A stretch of DNA of 33,617 nucleotides. Source: Sedimenticola sp. (GTDB lineage Bacteria > Pseudomonadota > Gammaproteobacteria > Chromatiales > Chromatiaceae). The notes beneath the pieces were generated by a model that had not been told where the DNA came from, searched no databases, and saw only the letters and a program-made list of their open reading frames with translations. Positions 4,211-18,216 of this stretch are shown here, piece by piece. The translations under genes and the position numbers were made by a program. Position 1 is the first letter of the stretch, and every line of letters starts with the position of its first letter. The stretch spans positions 1-33,617 of the forward strand of contig JALVTT010000089.1 of the NCBI GenBank assembly GCA_027024025.1, in the 5' to 3' direction.

Positions 4211-4529
4211 CTACGGCTGGCTCGGTGGGTTTTCAAGGTGTCCGGGACACCCCCCGTTCTGTGACTGGCATCCGTGGCGCCGGAGGAAGAACTGAATTCC
4301 TCAGATCTTCCCTAGGTTTCGCACAACTTATTGATAATTAAATTTTTTCGCCCTGTTAAAGTTTAAGCGTCAGCTGCCGACAGCCAGGCATGGGCGGGTC
4401 GGCTTCATGTTGTCTTCATGTTTGATCACATACAGTCAGCAACTTGCTGTGCGCCTGTGAATGCGCTCGGGACAGTGAGCAATTTTCCCCAGTCCTGCTA
4501 GACTCGTGTGGGTCGAAAGGAGGCGGATC
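4211..4529 (+). promoter_or_regulatory. Complex upstream region of the c-di-GMP sensor unit
   Basis: This 319-base gene-free region is more AT-rich than its surroundings. It contains a 6-bp hairpin with a 3-base loop at 4237-4251 (GGTGTC/GACACC, no T-tract, so a weak end for the hemerythrin gene). It also has a perfect 11-base palindrome TTAAAGTTTAA at 4356-4366, and two direct copies of CTTCATGTT at 4403-4411 and 4414-4422, spaced 11 bases, about one helical turn. TTGATA at 4331-4336 could be a -35 box with a poor partner. An extended -10 (TGCTAGACT, 4496-4504) lies just before the small ORF. These suggest a regulated promoter, but no specific regulator can be named. Confidence 0.45.
4496..4504 (+). 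promoter_or_regulatory. Candidate extended -10 promoter
   Basis: TGC-TAGACT matches an extended -10 element (TGn followed by a 4/6 match to TATAAT). No good -35 box sits 16-18 bases upstream, as is common for extended -10 promoters. Transcription from here would start about 15-20 bases before the small ORF at 4530 and give a short leader. Confidence 0.35.
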
Positions 4530-4667
4530 ATGGACGTTATAGGCCTACAGACCAAGGAAACTCCGGTTGGTTCGGGCATAGGCGGATTGTGGCGGGGCAA
4601 TGCCTGGTTCCAGGCGCAGACCGTGCGCGATAGATATCTGTTGCGAAGGTTTGCAGAACATAAATGA
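4530..4667 (+). CDS. Small 45-residue ORF coupled to the GGDEF/EAL sensor
   Basis: An ATG at 4530 is preceded by AAAGGAGG at 4516-4523, the best ribosome binding site in this part of the window, at a six-base spacing. The frame stays open for 45 codons and its TGA overlaps the ATG of the sensor gene (ATGA at 4664-4667). The peptide starts MDVIGLQTKETPVG and ends FAEHK; it contains a GSGIGGLWRGNAWF stretch with two Trp and a basic C-terminal third (RDRYLLRR). It has no membrane helix or signal peptide and I recognise no family. The sensor's own start has only a poor site, so this ORF could drive its translation by coupling, either as a leader peptide or as a real small protein partner. Function unknown. 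Confidence 0.6.
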   Translation: MDVIGLQTKETPVGSGIGGLWRGNAWFQAQTVRDRYLLRRFAEHK

Positions 4668-7600
4668 CCACGTTTTCGCCGCAAAGCACGTTTTTTCGAA
4701 TAGACCGGCGGCCATTCAGGGGCGGTTGGTTTGTCCTTATATTTGCCGTGTTCTTGGGCCTGGCATCCGGATTCTCGCGCGCCGCCGATGCCCGTATCGT
4801 CACGGTCGCAGTAGATGCGGAGTTCGCCCCTTATGAATTTTCCACAATGGATGGCGAGGTGCGAGGCATGGCCCCCGACATCTTGCGCGCCATTGGCAAG
4901 CAAAACCGAATTGTATTCCGTTTCGTGCCGATGAACTGGAGTCAAGCGGTCGAGGCGCTTCACGCGGGCCGTGTCGATCTGGTGCAGATGATACGAACCC
5001 AGGCGCGAGTACGGCGTTTTGTTTTCTCAGAGCCCTTTATCCAACTCACACAGGCATTATTCCGCCGCAAGGGCAGTGGCTTAACCGGGTTGTCGGATCT
5101 TTCCGGCCGGCGTGTTGCGCTGCAGCGGCACGATATCGCAGATGAGTTATTGAGGGGCCAGAACGATTTCCTGCGGGTGCCAGTGAATAACAAGTCGCAG
5201 GGCTTCGAGTTGCTGGATATGGGTAAGGTGGACGGCTTCTTTGCTGCCGAGCTGCCGGGCCATTACCTGTTACGCAGCGGCCGTTACCCTCAGGTCGAGT
5301 TGGCGCAAGGCGGTCTCTTTCCCATGTCCTTGTGTTTTACAGCGCGTAAGGACGATGCGTTGCTGATCCAGCGTATCAACGGGGCCTTGGAGCGACTGCG
5401 GAAGCAGGGTGTGCTTGCGGCTATCGAGCGAAAGTGGCGCGACGCGGGTCCCTCCAAAGAGACCCATCTGTGGGAGCCGCTCATTTTTCTGTCCGGTCTG
5501 GCGGCATTGTTTCTGGTGGTCATAATAATGGCGAAGTGGTCGCCCTTTGCCGTGATCTCCAGTCGGTTCCGGTCGGCCTGGCCACATGTCATACGCCATG
5601 CCTGGGCCGCGATCTTTTTGCTTTGCGCCTTGGGCAGCTTGGCGCTGTATCAACGCATGCACAACGACGAAAAGCGGTTGCTCCATTCGGAGATTGCGCA
5701 TCGTAGTCAGAACAAGCTCACCAATGCCCGGCTGTTCATTGAGCAACACATCGATGCTGCGCGTGGTCTTGCAGCCTATCTGGATAGTGAGATTATTCTC
5801 GACCGTTCTGCGCCGTCTGGCGCCGACAATCTGCGCCGGGATCAGGAACGCAGCCAGGAAGAAATACGTGGTAATGCCCTTGCCTTGCTACACGCGCATC
5901 CGGGCGAGATCATGGCCGTTACAGTGTTGATGGGTCGGGACAAAGGGCAAGCTGTGACTGTGGTCCAAGGCGAGCAGATAGGTACGGAGCTCGATCCACC
6001 ACTGGAAATGGGCCAGCTTGCGGATCTTGCGCCAGGTGAGGCGAAAATGCGGCTGAGCATCGGCAGCGCGGGGCAAAAGCTATTGCGCGTGTATTTGGCC
6101 ACCCATGAACGCCCTTTGGCTTATGTGGTCGTGGATTTGGACGCCACGGATCTTCTGGTTTCGGCTGTGACTGAAAACAAGCCCGCCGGCCTGGATGTGG
6201 AGGTCTGGGTGCATCATAAAGGACGGATAGTTTCCTTGCTGAGGCATGTCTCGCGAAGCAGAGACTTGGCGCCAGCGCCGGGGACGCCATTCGACTGGAC
6301 TGGTGTTTTCGTTGCCGGCGGGTTGCGGTTTGAGATGGCTACTCGCGCATCTCCGGTACTGACCGAGCGGTTTCTCAGCCATCGCCCGCACCTTCTCATG
6401 GTCCTAGGCTTGCTGCTCTCAGGGGTTATCACACTGATTGTGTACAGGCGTGCCCGGTATGGTGAGCGTTTGCGCGCCGAGGTAAGCGCTCGTACCGCCG
6501 AACTCGCAGCCGAGCAAAATAAATTGGCGGCCATTATTGAGCATGCCAGGGAGGGTGTATTGCTGGCCGATGGGCAGGGAAATATTTTGTTGGCCAACCC
6601 CGCCGCCTCCGAATTATTTGGCTATGGGCCGGGCGAATTGAACGGGCTCAGTATCACGGATCTGGTGGCGGGTGCGATTCCTGGATCGAGCGCTCGTCGG
6701 GTGTCAGCGGTGTTAGGCGCGGCCGGAGTTTACGATATGGGTCAGACGCGCGTGGCGCAGGCGCAGCATAAGGATGGCACTTTGTTCCCTTGCGAAATTA
6801 CCGTCAGCCGTTTTGAAGAGCGGGAAGAAACCCGCTTATCAGTCATTCTGCGCGATATCAGTACCCGTCATTATCTGGAACGAAACCGGGAAGCACTGCT
6901 TGAGATTCGGGGCATCAGTCAGCAGTCCGTGCCACAAGACAGGCGTCTTCAGCTGATTCTGGACGCCATGTTCGGTGAGGACTACGATCTTCCGTATTGG
7001 GCGGGCGTATTGTTTGTTGCTGATGGTGAAACACTGCGCATGGCTGCATGCCACGGATTCGGTGAATGGGCCGCGGGGCAGCAAATCCAGATTCCGCGCG
7101 GGGAGTGTTTGTGCGGACGCGCGTTTGCGGACAGGTGCACGCTGTGTTTGGCCTATCAGCCGGATGAGGAGCGATCCTTGTTAAAGGAGCTTGGAAGTGG
7201 CGGCCATTTGTGCATGCCAATCCGGCATGGTGAACAGCGCCTGGGGTTGATCGTTTTGGCGCTGCATCCGGACACGCCCGTTCCTGATCTGTTTTATGGA
7301 TTCCTAGAGCAAGTCGAGGAGGTCATTAGTGGCATGTTGCTGCGTGACCGAGACCGGCTCGCCTTGGAGGAAAGTGAGACGGTTCATCGCACCCTGGTCG
7401 AATCGACTCCGCTGGGCATTGTTATTCACGAGCGGGGCATCATACGGTATGCCAATCCGGCTATCGTGCGCATGCTGGGCTTTGATCAGGCGGGGCCCTT
7501 ATTGGATGCCAATTTTATGGATTGGGTAACCGAGGAGTCTCGTTCCGCGATTGAGGACTATATTCTCCGAGTAGGTGGGCAGGACGGGAACACGGTGTTG

Positions 7601-9091
7601 ATGGATGCTAAATTGCTGCGCGCAGATGGCAGCCCATTTTGGACTGAATTGCGCAGTACGCCCACGACGTTTTCGGGACGTTCCGCTAGTCAGTTGCTAA
7701 TTCAGGATATCAGCGAACGCAAGGCAGCCGAGTCACGATTACAATGGCTGTCTTATTATGACGATCTGACCGGGTTGCCCAATCGTCGTCTTTTCAATGA
7801 CCGTTTACAGCAGGCCATCATGTTGGCGCAACGCCATGACCATCCGCTAGCGGTTCTGTATATTGATCTGGATCGCTTCAAGTTCATCAACGACACCATG
7901 GGGCACGCGATTGGTGACAGAGTGTTGGCGGTCATTGGCGAACGGTTGCGTGATGGTCTGCGCGATGCCGATAGCGTGGCGCGACTTGGCGGAGACGAGT
8001 TCGCGGTGTTGTTGCCAGAGTCCAGCAGACAGGCGGCCCTGGCGGTGGCCGAAAAGCTGTATGAGTTTATCGTTGAGCCTTGTGTGATCGATAACCATGA
8101 GTTTATGTTGGAGGGTAGCATCGGTATTGCGGCTTTCCCCGAGGATGGCGCGGATATCGAGACCTTGCTGAAACACGCGGATACCGCTATGTACCATGCC
8201 AAGACCCATCACACCCATTTGCATTGTTTTAGTGGTGAGATGGCTAAGAAGGTAAGCCGCCGCTTGTCGTTGGAGCAGGAACTGGCTAAGGCGATTGATA
8301 CCAAGACGCTGGAGGCCGTATCCCGGCCGGATTGTTTCTCCCTGTATTACCAGGGAAAATATTGGCTCGCGGGGGGGGCGCCAGATACGGCTGGCCTGCT
8401 TGGTGTCGAGGCCTTGCTGCGATGGAGGCATCCTCAGGGCGAAGAGGTGTCGCCAGCGGAATTTATCCCCATGGCCGAGGAAACCGGGATGATTCTTCCT
8501 TTGACTCGCTGGTTGCTGGAGGAGGCCGCGCGTCAGGCCGCTTGGTGGGAGGCGCAGGGGGTGCGACCTGGCCCAATAGGCCTCAATATCTCGCCGGTCA
8601 AGATGATGCGCAGGGATATGGCGGAGACCATGTTGGATATCATCGCGCGGCACGGCGCTCAGCCTGAGTGGTTCGAGGTGGAGATCACTGAAACCGCCAT
8701 GATGCTGGATCCGGAACTCGCCACCAGTGTAACGCGCAAGCTGGCGGATGCCGGCATGTCCGTGGCCATTGATGACTTCGGTACCGGATACTCGTCGTTG
8801 GCCTATTTGAAACAATTCCCGGTGGATTGGCTCAAGATCGATATCGCTTTCGTCCGCGATCTCCCCCACAGCACGGAAAATACCGCGATCGTCCGGTCGA
8901 TTATCGCCATGGCTCATGCCATGGGTATCAAGGTGCTTGCCGAGGGAGTGGAATCCAATGCGCAACTCGAATTTCTGGCCAATGAGGGATGTGATGCTGT
9001 TCAGGGGTTTTTGACTGGCAGGCCTTGCCCGGGTAGCGGAATCGCTGATCTGGTGAGATCCGTGGGACTTGGGCGTGTGGGACAGAATTGA
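4664..9091 (+). CDS. SBP-PAS-GAF-PAS-GGDEF-EAL cyclic-di-GMP sensor
   Basis: The 1475-residue membrane protein has an N-terminal signal or anchor (about 22-40), a periplasmic type-3 solute-binding domain (about 44-265), transmembrane segments near 270-293 and 312-331, a second periplasmic CHASE-like region (about 332-575) and a third membrane segment at 576-596. In the cytoplasm follow PAS (620-740), GAF (745-900), PAS (906-1030), GGDEF and EAL. GGDEF is intact at 1109-1113 with an RxxD product-inhibition site (Arg1100, Asp1103). EAL is intact in its key motifs (Glu1249 in EALLRWR, EITE, DDFGTGYSS, LKID, AEGVES, VQGF). It could therefore both make and degrade c-di-GMP in response to an amino-acid-like ligand and a cytoplasmic signal. 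The GAF domain has Cys815, 817, 825 and 828. Base composition is lower in GC than flanking genes. The ligand is unknown. Confidence 0.93.
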   Translation: MTTFSPQSTFFRIDRRPFRGGWFVLIFAVFLGLASGFSRAADARIVTVAVDAEFAPYEFSTMDGEVRGMAPDILRAIGKQNRIVFRFVPMNWSQAVEALHAGRVDLVQMIRTQARVRRFVFSEPFIQLTQALFRRKGSGLTGLSDLSGRRVALQRHDIADELLRGQNDFLRVPVNNKSQGFELLDMGKVDGFFAAELPGHYLLRSGRYPQVELAQGGLFPMSLCFTARKDDALLIQRINGALERLRKQGVLAAIERKWRDAGPSKETHLWEPLIFLSGLAALFLVVIIMAKWSPFAVISSRFRSAWPHVIRHAWAAIFLLCALGSLALYQRMHNDEKRLLHSEIAHRSQNKLTNARLFIEQHIDAARGLAAYLDSEIILDRSAPSGADNLRRDQERSQEEIRGNALALLHAHPGEIMAVTVLMGRDKGQAVTVVQGEQIGTELDPPLEMGQLADLAPGEAKMRLSIGSAGQKLLRVYLATHERPLAYVVVDLDATDLLVSAVTENKPAGLDVEVWVHHKGRIVSLLRHVSRSRDLAPAPGTPFDWTGVFVAGGLRFEMATRASPVLTERFLSHRPHLLMVLGLLLSGVITLIVYRRARYGERLRAEVSARTAELAAEQNKLAAIIEHAREGVLLADGQGNILLANPAASELFGYGPGELNGLSITDLVAGAIPGSSARRVSAVLGAAGVYDMGQTRVAQAQHKDGTLFPCEITVSRFEEREETRLSVILRDISTRHYLERNREALLEIRGISQQSVPQDRRLQLILDAMFGEDYDLPYWAGVLFVADGETLRMAACHGFGEWAAGQQIQIPRGECLCGRAFADRCTLCLAYQPDEERSLLKELGSGGHLCMPIRHGEQRLGLIVLALHPDTPVPDLFYGFLEQVEEVISGMLLRDRDRLALEESETVHRTLVESTPLGIVIHERGIIRYANPAIVRMLGFDQAGPLLDANFMDWVTEESRSAIEDYILRVGGQDGNTVLMDAKLLRADGSPFWTELRSTPTTFSGRSASQLLIQDISERKAAESRLQWLSYYDDLTGLPNRRLFNDRLQQAIMLAQRHDHPLAVLYIDLDRFKFINDTMGHAIGDRVLAVIGERLRDGLRDADSVARLGGDEFAVLLPESSRQAALAVAEKLYEFIVEPCVIDNHEFMLEGSIGIAAFPEDGADIETLLKHADTAMYHAKTHHTHLHCFSGEMAKKVSRRLSLEQELAKAIDTKTLEAVSRPDCFSLYYQGKYWLAGGAPDTAGLLGVEALLRWRHPQGEEVSPAEFIPMAEETGMILPLTRWLLEEAARQAAWWEAQGVRPGPIGLNISPVKMMRRDMAETMLDIIARHGAQPEWFEVEITETAMMLDPELATSVTRKLADAGMSVAIDDFGTGYSSLAYLKQFPVDWLKIDIAFVRDLPHSTENTAIVRSIIAMAHAMGIKVLAEGVESNAQLEFLANEGCDAVQGFLTGRPCPGSGIADLVRSVGLGRVGQN

Positions 9092-13011: not shown

Positions 13012-15570
<2,559 letters not shown>

Positions 15571-15577
15571 GATTTTC

Positions 15578-15678
15578 ACCACCAAGGACACAAAGAACAC
15601 GAAGAAATGCATGCAGGATGGCCAGGGGCCTGAGCGCATTTATCGCTATTGTTGTAACTCTTTGTGTTCTTTGTGGTT
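15578..15678. repeat. Inverted-arm repeat of 9-base units, copy 1 (gyrA-serC)
   Basis: Left arm at 15578-15604 is made of degenerate 9-mers of the form RRCACRAAG; right arm at 15658-15678 reads the same motif on the other strand (CTTTGTGTTCTTTGTGG). Arms can pair into a long imperfect hairpin with a 53-base interior that is unlike the interiors of copies 2 and 3. The left arm begins eight bases after the gyrA stop. Confidence 0.85.
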
Positions 15679-15694
15679 ATCAACCATTCAGATC

Positions 15695-15772
15695 GTAGGT
15701 TGGGCAAAGGCGCGCAGCGACGTGCCCAACGAAATCAAGGCTGTTGGGCATGCTGCGCTTTGCCCAACCTAC
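15695..15772. repeat. Palindromic REP-like element with nested hairpin
   Basis: GTAGGTTGGGCAAAG at 15695-15709 and CTTTGCCCAACCTAC at 15758-15772 form a perfect 15-bp inverted repeat. Inside lies a second pair, GTGCCCAAC (15722-15730) and GTTGGGCA (15743-15750). The two half-elements look like related copies in opposite orientation. It sits between repeat copy 1 and the serC ribosome binding site. Confidence 0.85.
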
Positions 15773-15802
15773 AACGTATTCAGTGAAGTTTAGGAAGAAG
15801 CT

Positions 15803-16885
15803 ATGGCACGAGTATTCAATTTCAGCGCGGGTCCGGCCGCGCTTCCCGAGGCGGTTCTGAAGCAGGCACAGGAGGAGATGCTGGACTGGCGCGGCTCCGG
15901 GATGTCGGTGATGGAGATGAGCCATCGCGGCAAGGCCTTCATGTCCATCGCCGAGCAGGCCGAGGCCGATCTGCGCGAGCTGATGGCCATTCCCGACAAC
16001 TACAAGGTGCTGTTCCTGCAGGGCGGGGCCTCCAGTCAGTTCGCCATGGTGCCCATGAACCTGATGGCCGACGGTGACGAGGCCGACTACTTCCTGACCG
16101 GGGCCTGGTCCAAGAAGGCGATCGCCGAGGCGCGGCGCTTCGGCAAGGTGAACGTGGTGGCGGATACCAGCGACAGCAAGTTTACCACCCTGCCGGAGCC
16201 GGGCAGTGTCCGCTTCAGTCCCGATGCCGACTATGTGCACTACACTCCCAACGAGACCATCCAGGGGGTGGAGTTCAACTACATCCCCGACACCGGCGCC
16301 GTGCCGCTGGTGGCGGACATGTCCTCGACCATCCTCTCGCGCCCGGTCGATGTCAGCCGCTTCGGCATCATCTATGCCGGGGCGCAGAAGAACGTCGGCC
16401 CGGCGGGGCTGACGATCGTGATCATCCGTGACGATCTGATCGGCGGCGCCGGCGAGCGGGTGCCGGCCATGTTCAACTACGCCACCCATGCCGATGCCGG
16501 CTCCATGTACAACACCCCGCCGACCTACAGCTGGTACCTGGCGGGGCTGGTGTTCGCCTGGCTCAAGGAGCAGGGCGGGCTGGAGAAGATGGCCGAGGTC
16601 AACCAGCGCAAGGCGGCCATGCTCTACGACGCCATCGACGCCAGCGACTTCTACGACAACCCGGTCGAGAAGCCGTACCGCTCCTGGATGAACGTGCCCT
16701 TCACCCTGGCCGACCCGGAACTCGACGGCAAGTTCCTGGAAGAGGCCGCCGCGGCGGGTCTCGCGACCCTCAAGGGCCACCGCTCCATCGGCGGCATGCG
16801 CGCCAGCATCTACAACGCCATGCCTGAAGAAGGCGTCAAGGCGCTGGTGGACTTCATGGCCGAGTTCGAGCGTAAGAACGGCTAA
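15803..16885 (+). CDS. serC: Phosphoserine aminotransferase
   Basis: SerC transfers an amino group from glutamate to 3-phosphohydroxypyruvate, giving phosphoserine in serine synthesis; it also serves pyridoxal phosphate synthesis in many gammaproteobacteria. The 360-residue protein starts with FNFSAGPAALPE, has the SHRGKAF phosphate-binding stretch, and the PLP Schiff-base lysine is Lys196 in AGAQKNVGPAG. The C-terminal IGGMRASIYNAM is typical of SerC. AGGAAG lies six bases before the ATG. It is placed between gyrA and serA, so two consecutive serine pathway steps are adjacent, but in the reverse of the reaction order. Repeat elements flank it on both sides. Confidence 0.97.
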   Translation: MARVFNFSAGPAALPEAVLKQAQEEMLDWRGSGMSVMEMSHRGKAFMSIAEQAEADLRELMAIPDNYKVLFLQGGASSQFAMVPMNLMADGDEADYFLTGAWSKKAIAEARRFGKVNVVADTSDSKFTTLPEPGSVRFSPDADYVHYTPNETIQGVEFNYIPDTGAVPLVADMSSTILSRPVDVSRFGIIYAGAQKNVGPAGLTIVIIRDDLIGGAGERVPAMFNYATHADAGSMYNTPPTYSWYLAGLVFAWLKEQGGLEKMAEVNQRKAAMLYDAIDASDFYDNPVEKPYRSWMNVPFTLADPELDGKFLEEAAAAGLATLKGHRSIGGMRASIYNAMPEEGVKALVDFMAEFERKNG

Positions 16886-16890
16886 TCGAA

Positions 16891-17020
16891 AACCACAAAG
16901 GGCACGAAGAACACCAAGATCTTATAGCTGGCAGGGACGGCGGACTGTGGATGACTGGGGCTGATGATTGGCTCGATAAGGAATACGGAAGTCCCTTTGT
17001 GTTCTTTGTGTTCTTTGTGG
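16891..17020. repeat. Inverted-arm repeat of 9-base units, copy 2 (serC-serA)
   Basis: Left arm 16891-16919 contains three RRCACRAAG-type units (ACCACAAAG, GGCACGAAG, AACACCAAG). Right arm 16993-17020 holds three units on the opposite strand, with TTCTTTGTG repeated in tandem. The 73-base interior is not shared with the other copies. It lies six bases after the serC stop and ends 26 bases before serA. Confidence 0.85.
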
Positions 17021-17046
17021 CGAATTTCTTCCAAGGAACCTGAACA

Positions 17047-18216
17047 ATGTACAAAATCCAGACACTCAACAATATCTCGGTTGCGGGGTTGGACCGCCTG
17101 CCGCGCGATCAATACGAGGTGGCCTCCGAGATCGCCCATCCCGACGCCATCCTGGTGCGCTCGGCCAAGATGCACGACATGGAGATCCCGGACACGGTGA
17201 AGGCCATCGGCCGCGCCGGGGCCGGGGTCAACAACATCCCGGTCGAGCGCATGACCGAGGCCGGGGTGCCGGTGTTCAACGCCCCCGGGGCGAATGCCAA
17301 CGCGGTCAAGGAGCTGGTGCTGGCCAGCATGCTGATGGCGGCGCGCAACATCGGGCCCGCCTGGCGCTTCGCCCAGGGCCTGGAGGGCAGCGACGCCGAG
17401 ATCGGCAAGGCCGTGGAGGCCGGCAAGAAGCAGTTCGTCGGCTTCGAGCTGCCGGGCCGGACCCTGGGCGTGATCGGCCTGGGCGCCATCGGGGTCAAGG
17501 TCGCCAACGCGGCGCGCGCCCTGGGCATGAACGTGATCGGCTACGACCCGACCATCACCGTCAAGGCGGCCTGGCAGCTCGATGCCGGGGTGCAGCAGGC
17601 CGTCTCGCCCGATGATCTGGTCGCGCGCTGCGATTTCATCAGCCTGCACATCCCCCTGACCGAGGCCACGCGCAACAAGATCAACGCCGAGCGCATCGCG
17701 CTGATGCCCAAGGGCGCGGTGATCCTCAATTTCGCGCGCAACGGGCTGGTGGACGACGAGGCCGCGGTCAAGGCCCTGGACGAGGGGCATCTGTACGCCT
17801 ATGTCTGCGACTTTCCCAGCAACCTGCTCAAGGAGCATCCGCGCGTCATCGCCCTGCCGCATCTCGGCGCCTCCACCCGTGAGGCGGAGGAGAACTGCGC
17901 GGTCATGGTGGTGGACGAGGTGCGCGACTGGCTGGAGAACGGCAATGTGCGCAACTCGGTCAACTTCCCGGAGATCCATCTGCCGCGCGGCGAGGGCTAT
18001 CGCCTGGCGGTGGTCAACGCCAATGTGCCCAATATGCTGGGTCAGGTCTCCAGCCTGCTGGCCGATGCCGGACTCAATATCACCGACATGCTCAACAAGT
18101 CGCGCGACGAGATCGCGGTGACCCTGATCGATGTGGACAAGGCGCCCGAGCCCCCGGTGGCCGAGGCCGTCGCCAGCATCGAGGGCGTGCTCTCGGTCCG
18201 CTGCCTCGGCTGCTGA
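17047..18216 (+). CDS. serA: D-3-phosphoglycerate dehydrogenase
   Basis: SerA oxidises 3-phosphoglycerate to 3-phosphohydroxypyruvate with NAD+, the first step of serine synthesis. The 389-residue protein has the Rossmann motif GLGAIG at residues 144-149, the catalytic His272 in PHLGAST, and an ACT domain from about residue 315 (YRLAVVNANVPNMLG onward). The ACT domain usually binds serine for feedback inhibition in related enzymes; whether it does here is inference. The size fits the short ACT-containing type rather than the long form with an intervening domain. AAGGAA about ten bases upstream supports the ATG at 17047. Repeat copies 2 and 3 flank the gene. Confidence 0.96.
   Translation: MYKIQTLNNISVAGLDRLPRDQYEVASEIAHPDAILVRSAKMHDMEIPDTVKAIGRAGAGVNNIPVERMTEAGVPVFNAPGANANAVKELVLASMLMAARNIGPAWRFAQGLEGSDAEIGKAVEAGKKQFVGFELPGRTLGVIGLGAIGVKVANAARALGMNVIGYDPTITVKAAWQLDAGVQQAVSPDDLVARCDFISLHIPLTEATRNKINAERIALMPKGAVILNFARNGLVDDEAAVKALDEGHLYAYVCDFPSNLLKEHPRVIALPHLGASTREAEENCAVMVVDEVRDWLENGNVRNSVNFPEIHLPRGEGYRLAVVNANVPNMLGQVSSLLADAGLNITDMLNKSRDEIAVTLIDVDKAPEPPVAEAVASIEGVLSVRCLGC

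Follow-up and report, generated by a model that had tools for sequence, protein, structure and literature searches.

An old MITE insertion probably split the 5′ end of a c-di-GMP sensor gene in Sedimenticola sp. and may supply its restart codon

We examined the junction between a very large sensor gene of Sedimenticola sp. and the short ORF that precedes it within a 33,617-nt stretch of DNA (contig JALVTT010000089.1, referred to here as the window). The short ORF occupies positions 4530..4667 of the + strand, reads from ATG to TGA and encodes a peptide of 45 aa, MDVIGLQTKETPVGSGIGGLWRGNAWFQAQTVRDRYLLRRFAEHK. A Shine-Dalgarno sequence, AAAGGAGG, lies at 4516-4523 on the same strand, six bases 5′ of ATG 4530. 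The stop codon of the ORF (TGA, 4665-4667) overlaps the start codon of the sensor (ATG, 4664-4666) in the arrangement ATGA, and the geometry of a coupled pair, a stop/start overlap together with a ribosome-binding site at the upstream ORF, is therefore present. The sensor itself (4664..9091, + strand; 1475 aa) has the profile-matched architecture SBP_bac_3-PAS-GAF-PAS-GGDEF-EAL and is almost devoid of a Shine-Dalgarno sequence, the nearest candidate being GAAGG at 4645-4649, 14 nt from ATG 4664. The strong site upstream of ATG 4530, its near-absence before the sensor and the overlap at 4664-4667 had all been claimed in a sequence-only reading of this DNA and are borne out here. The 33.6-kb window contains two copies of the octamer AAAGGAGG where 0.6 would be expected, and since 12 of 100 shuffles contain it at least twice, its mere presence is not rare; its spacing to ATG 4530 is. 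An alternative in-frame start, GTG 4506, would extend the peptide to 53 aa and begins 2 nt beyond the end of a promoter-like box at 4495-4504. The predicted RNA fold of the ATGA junction is unremarkable (z -1.7; 12 of 200 shuffles equally good) and the window has no match in Rfam at the gathering threshold. The 45-aa peptide has no match in Pfam at E ≤ 0.001, a single chance-level match in each of NCBIfam and PHROGs (E 0.086 and 0.067) and nothing at E ≤ 1 in a plasmid search.

A six-frame protein search of 55 genomes, including the source genome, returned 56 non-self hits to the peptide, all of them weak and 13 in one congener. We examined the 22 that lie within the genus together with one in a further genome, G021 (22 loci in all); the remaining 33 hits are in more distant genomes, and two of these (G027:C260 and G027:C68) coincide with places occupied by the element described below. 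In 17 of the 22 loci the translation KEALINSGASRLWRKIVQFKARIARNSRLLRRFATRK recurs in the same register as the peptide, with frequent stops, and extends past the peptide end as WAI..RRKMPCYELIRASL. At the DNA level the matches correspond to a 160-bp repeat with inverted ends, GGAAGCTCTGATyAATTC-like at both ends of the family copies. Identical 4-bp flanks, including CTAA, TTAA, TTAG, CTTG and TTTG, were found as target-site duplications in 15 of 28 measured places (of 46), with three of four bases matching in 8 of the other 13. When one copy (L062) was folded, it formed a full-length DNA hairpin (-47.9 kcal/mol, z -9.7), and other family copies match the profile on both strands. Being short (160 bp), multi-copy and devoid of a transposase gene, the repeat has the characteristics of a MITE, and judged from their sequences the peptide hits in congeners are mostly copies of this foldback element. 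From the 4-bp YTAR-like target duplications we presume the family to be of the IS5 type. No parent insertion sequence or transposase with the same ends was seen by eye in the list of element ends or in three loci, and three element copies gave no match in Rfam at E ≤ 0.1. All 8 genomes of the genus carry the element, as do at least 72 of 210 genomes and at least 19 of 61 genera of the family, with the source genome counted; copy counts per genome take in both strands of a palindrome and reflect scoring of part of the candidates.

The alignment underlying these statements kept 17 of the 22 loci, with L080, L068, L069, L072 and L074 left out. The best non-self hit, L080 in G021 (E 6.5e-4, one internal stop), was considered as an element copy and rejected, having no profile hit above 10 bits; it contains no tRNA. 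L068 and L069 lie beside or partly inside a tRNA-Gly gene. The first profile was built from 13 of the 17 loci, omitting L073 (internal insertion) and L065, L071 and L081 (incomplete), with the row for L075 standing in reverse orientation; a remade alignment, in which L075 was turned and L076 dropped to give 12 rows, found the same place in the window. A broad profile was built from 47 of 54 loci, two of which (L109 and L120) represent one place, giving 46 places. Element forms of about 205 bp also occur among the genome matches, and palindromic derivatives of 60-67 nt that match the MITE end only, on both strands, were seen at three loci in two genomes (L161-L163; G005, G006).

Searched with the 13-copy profile, from which the window was withheld, nhmmer aligns 4553-4708 of the + strand without gaps to model positions 2-157 of 168 (50.3 bits, E 4.1e-15), whereas the best of 3000 dinucleotide shuffles of a 220-nt segment reached 6.8 bits. 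The broad profile (47 rows, 46 places) matches 4553-4710 with one inserted base (55.8 bits, E 8.3e-17), and an element-model search of the source genome places it at 4554-4711 (E 1.3e-12). A second match of 28.8 bits on the reverse strand of the window reflects the palindrome. The window thus carries a decayed 160-bp MITE copy in sense orientation at 4556..4715 (+ strand), in which the left end is recognisable and the right end largely decayed, 4709-4715 being assigned by register without a match. From the profile register and the 4-bp duplications of other copies, the putative target-site duplications would be CCAA at 4552..4555 and TCAG at 4716..4719 (both + strand), each decayed and now equal at two of four positions. 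Among the copies compared, the closest are in G196, G195 and G193, genomes of the same genus as G194, which bears the only sensor ortholog found; the best single copy compared, L140 in G196, agrees with the window copy in 95 of 132 columns and likewise has ATGA at the same place. In the source genome the window copy is the only near-full-length one among the 150 of 1319 candidates scored, accompanied by a short end fragment on contig C151. The residual palindrome of the window copy is weak (about 90th of 66434 axes, and about 1330th without the central 12 pairs) and its fold is no better than those of shuffles (z 0.73), which is as expected for an old copy and is not independent proof of one.

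Since the profile match spans 4553-4708, codons 10-45 of the short ORF, the ATGA junction and the first 17 codons of the sensor (4664-4714) consist of element DNA, with ORF codon 9 lying across the insertion junction. The sequence-only reading was right that the peptide matches no protein family; the reason is that the peptide is transposable-element DNA. The junction at 4664..4667 (+ strand) is likewise element sequence, as the aligned place carries ATG in 21 of the 46 other places and ATGA in 7 of 46. A long ORF starts within the element at 18 of 46 places; of the 10 that were read, the gene-like ones seem by eye to have a natural start just downstream. The idea that the MITE acts as a portable stop/start module was rejected, usable restarts amounting to 11% in real against 27% in shuffled sequence in the sense orientation and to 31% against 29% in reverse. 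At one other locus (L125 in G003, position 1553, reverse strand) the ATG that the MITE carries at the corresponding position leads by an open frame into a gene that may encode an agmatine deiminase and probably has its natural start some 20 codons downstream.

The remainder of the short ORF appears to belong to the sensor gene. When the flanks are joined with 164 nt removed, under either choice of duplication, ATG 4530 falls in frame with the sensor signal peptide, and the joined product, MDVIGLQ(TK or IR)GGWFVLIFAVFLGLASGFSRA... (alternatively rendered as MDVIGLQ(TK/IR)GGWFVLIFAVFLGLASGFSRAADA...), would be an ordinary-looking signal peptide by eye. As the frame would be restored by chance one time in three, this join is supportive rather than decisive. 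Together with a box spacing shared with the ortholog it points to 4530..4555 (+ strand) as what survives of the sensor gene's original 5′ end, comprising its start codon within the first 8-9 codons, of which ORF codons 1-8 are the intact part. The element and its duplication add 160 + 4 = 164 nt, which leaves a remainder of two on division by three, so the insertion broke the reading frame; the same arithmetic rules out a clean in-frame insertion. In simulations of neutral decay, the ORF, its start and stop and the open exit frame were all retained in 3.5% of 20000 runs, which gives modest support to selection on the junction; these runs began from an open composite consensus and constitute a weak test.

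The only sensor ortholog found is L099 on contig G194:C292 (JALVUB010000292.1, 3630 nt), from a MAG of Sedimenticola sp. Orthologs were sought among 210 genomes belonging to the family or order and among 369 from the class, where the source genome alone matched; a species collection was also screened with two peptide patterns. None of the 7 congeners yields a match to the first 619 residues of the sensor at E ≤ 1e-20, which leaves the peptide without a group of orthologs that could show its conservation; in two family genomes (G227 and G059) the match, at 27-29%, is confined to the solute-binding region. Upstream of its coding region the ortholog carries CTGCTAGACT, identical to the box at 4495..4504 (+ strand) of the window, a purine-rich AAGAGGA and a likely start codon, TTG 287, which begins 26 nt beyond the last base of the box, exactly as ATG 4530 does in the window; TTG codons downstream of it may also serve as starts. 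From this positional equivalence we read AAAGGAGG at 4516-4523 as the putative original ribosome-binding site of the sensor gene. We take CTGCTAGACT to be an extended -10-like element, and its conservation makes a transcription start downstream of 4530 less likely, despite a consensus promoter scan that found no promoter in either the window or the ortholog. The ortholog reads as one continuous ORF from TTG 287 to TAG 1778 with no separate peptide, so that the expectation of a 45-codon frame conserved in relatives fails in the one relative available. The TAG at position 1778 is in frame on a contig with 2.2x coverage and represents either a sequencing error or decay, and for these reasons the start and n-region of the ortholog are uncertain.

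Protein similarity between the two sensors begins at residue 20, just past the element. The n-region of the ortholog (18 codons) nevertheless aligns without gaps and in the same frame with codons 10-27 of the short ORF, at 36 of 54 nt, a likeness reached by none of 5000 DNA shuffles and by 29 of 20000 protein shuffles; the mismatches number 2, 6 and 11 by codon position. The ortholog is thus not a clean empty site: either the insertion is older than the split and the ortholog has since lost 113 nt, or the similarity is native or due to chance. The ortholog segment taken by itself is not significantly similar to the element (62 of 500 shuffles as good; no broad-profile hit at E ≤ 1), and against the 13-copy profile it scores 1.9 bits (E 0.41) in the predicted register. 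Because of the n-region similarity, we rank an older insertion above a recent one that followed divergence from the ortholog.

The same similarity, at both the DNA and protein levels, is what an alternative would build on in which the inserted element was 5′-truncated, measured about 113 nt and landed near 4611, with codons 1-27 as native n-region and a merely fortuitous likeness of 4556-4609 to the element. The segment 4601-4760 alone indeed scores 30.7 bits. However, 4530-4600 alone matches the left end of the element, again without gaps and with the register unchanged (7.8 bits, E 9e-5), and the likeness across 4556-4609, which begins at the true terminus of the element, was reached by none of 500 shuffles, so we regard a truncated insertion as unlikely.

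The fate of the sensor gene bears on a second alternative, that the insertion disabled expression, with the short ORF translated and the sensor started poorly from an internal GTG or TTG, or hardly at all, on its way to becoming a pseudogene. ATG 4664 lacks a good Shine-Dalgarno sequence, and GTG 4748 and TTG 4754 are the next in-frame starts, as such a course would have it. By eye, however, both fall inside the signal peptide's hydrophobic core and would cut into that peptide, whereas the 17 MITE-derived codons stand before this core. With TAA directly 5′ of it in the sensor frame, ATG 4664 is the only start that keeps the signal peptide whole. Moreover, the ORF is uninterrupted across 1475 codons although the insertion appears very old, the element differing at 62 of 167 positions from the composite consensus. 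Compared with the ortholog over 1077 codons, the sensor has a pN of 0.27 and a pS of 0.75 (saturated), and this sequence divergence indicates purifying selection. An open, apparently selected sensor ORF beside so strongly diverged an element implies that the start at ATG 4664 probably functions, and we judge loss of expression to be rather improbable.

A third alternative, that the 45-residue peptide is a functional small protein under selection, either a leader peptide or a partner of the sensor, follows from the ideal Shine-Dalgarno spacing and the ATGA overlap, and the distribution of mismatches over codons 10-27 suggests some constraint at the protein level. Against this, the element accounts for 36 of the 45 codons, what the peptide has in common with the ortholog belongs there to the N-terminus of the sensor itself, and the absence of a match for the first 619 sensor residues in seven congeners leaves no ortholog set. 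We therefore consider a dedicated peptide very unlikely: the coupling geometry that prompted the earlier proposal is real, and its attribution to a leader peptide or protein partner is unsupported by an ORF that is mostly mobile-element DNA and by a sole ortholog that has no separate peptide. The frames do overlap such that a -1 shift would fuse the short ORF to the sensor, but a ribosomal frameshift near 4662 is scarcely credible, since no slippery heptamer is recognisable by eye before the TGA, whereas an ATG overlaps the stop.

We consider it probable, at roughly three chances in four, that the 5′ end of the sensor gene was split long ago by a MITE and that the sensor now relies on termination-reinitiation at the ATG which the MITE carries. 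The element, 160 bp with a 4-bp duplication, would have entered in sense orientation after sensor codon 8-9, within the n-region of the signal peptide. The apparent 45-residue gene would then comprise the ribosome-binding site, start codon and opening codons that once served the sensor, with reading continued into the element as far as TGA 4665, where an element-borne ATG overlaps the stop and its frame is open through the right end of the element into the sensor. Ribosomes would load at AAAGGAGG, read 45 codons, stop at the TGA and restart at the overlapping ATG, giving a sensor with 17 element-derived N-terminal residues and a predicted N-terminus of MTTFSPQ. Given a sensor start without a good Shine-Dalgarno sequence, termination-reinitiation from the short ORF is the simplest route, and translational coupling is the most plausible way in which the sensor would be translated. 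The peptide most likely has no role except to bring ribosomes to the restart site. While element homology, register, frame arithmetic and the single uninterrupted sensor ORF can be read directly, the transcription, translation and reinitiation steps are predictions from them.

The window holds another dispersed palindromic repeat, about 52 bp long with the consensus TGCCGGCACATCCTTGTGCCGGAGGAAGATCCGAATTTTTCAGATCTTCC, which lies at 4269-4320 and has 9 more matches in the source genome at E ≤ 1; the end of its hairpin resembles the MITE end only faintly. The translations of frames 15494-15793, 15680-16780 and 16882-17979 resemble what we take to be dispersed repeats (VGWAK..., KEHKEHKG...), suggesting that these are further intergenic repeat families.

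Bacterial MITEs inside genes have been described, among them the Rickettsia palindromic elements, ERIC and YPAL, and for YPAL a signal peptide made partly by the MITE is on record, in the available portions of these accounts (PMC2229807; PMC10969869 for gene-internal elements, PMC2229807 for the signal peptide). As far as these portions go, the cases are mostly in-frame fusions, with mention of frame-shifted ERIC fusions that form new loci (PMC2229807; PMC10969869). The window copy resembles them in being a small palindromic non-autonomous element in a coding region that contributes codons to a protein; unlike the cases set out there, it breaks the frame of an existing gene yet supplies the stop/start junction for reading it. 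In-frame MITE-gene fusions being already known, what would set this locus apart, at least relative to those portions, is an insertion that breaks the frame and is rescued by a stop/start junction carried in by the MITE, and a literature search at the level of titles and abstract openings, which is no proof of absence, found no such rescue. In a study of termination-reinitiation at ATGA overlaps, 13 of the 14 pairs tested were strictly coupled; downstream genes that overlap commonly carry a Shine-Dalgarno sequence of their own, and its removal reduced reinitiation in 4 of the 5 E. coli pairs (PMC6728339). Our locus shares with those pairs the 4-nt overlap and a strong Shine-Dalgarno sequence at the upstream ORF; it differs in that both ORFs of the pairs described there are genes, whereas the upstream ORF here would be the stump of the same gene joined to element DNA, and in that the downstream start has almost no Shine-Dalgarno sequence. 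By analogy with the E. coli pairs reported in that study, reinitiation at ATG 4664 may thus be inefficient. The YTAR-like 4-bp target duplications resemble those of IS5-type MITEs; no parent transposase gene was found for the present family, so its assignment to that type is tentative.

The locus illustrates that a short ORF with a strong ribosome-binding site and an ATGA overlap, for all its resemblance to a small-protein gene, can be the scar of a mobile-element insertion, and that annotating small ORFs from a Shine-Dalgarno sequence and an overlap alone would name such a scar a gene. It is also a probable example, open to experiment, of a gene that outlived the disruption of its frame thanks to a restart codon within the inserted DNA. 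A further step, doubtful at present, is that the element has been exapted and its remnant kept because it sets sensor output. If so, translation of the 45 codons would open the structure of the remnant and pass ribosomes to the MITE-borne ATG, and both the level of a c-di-GMP receptor and the N-terminus of its signal peptide would depend on transposon DNA.
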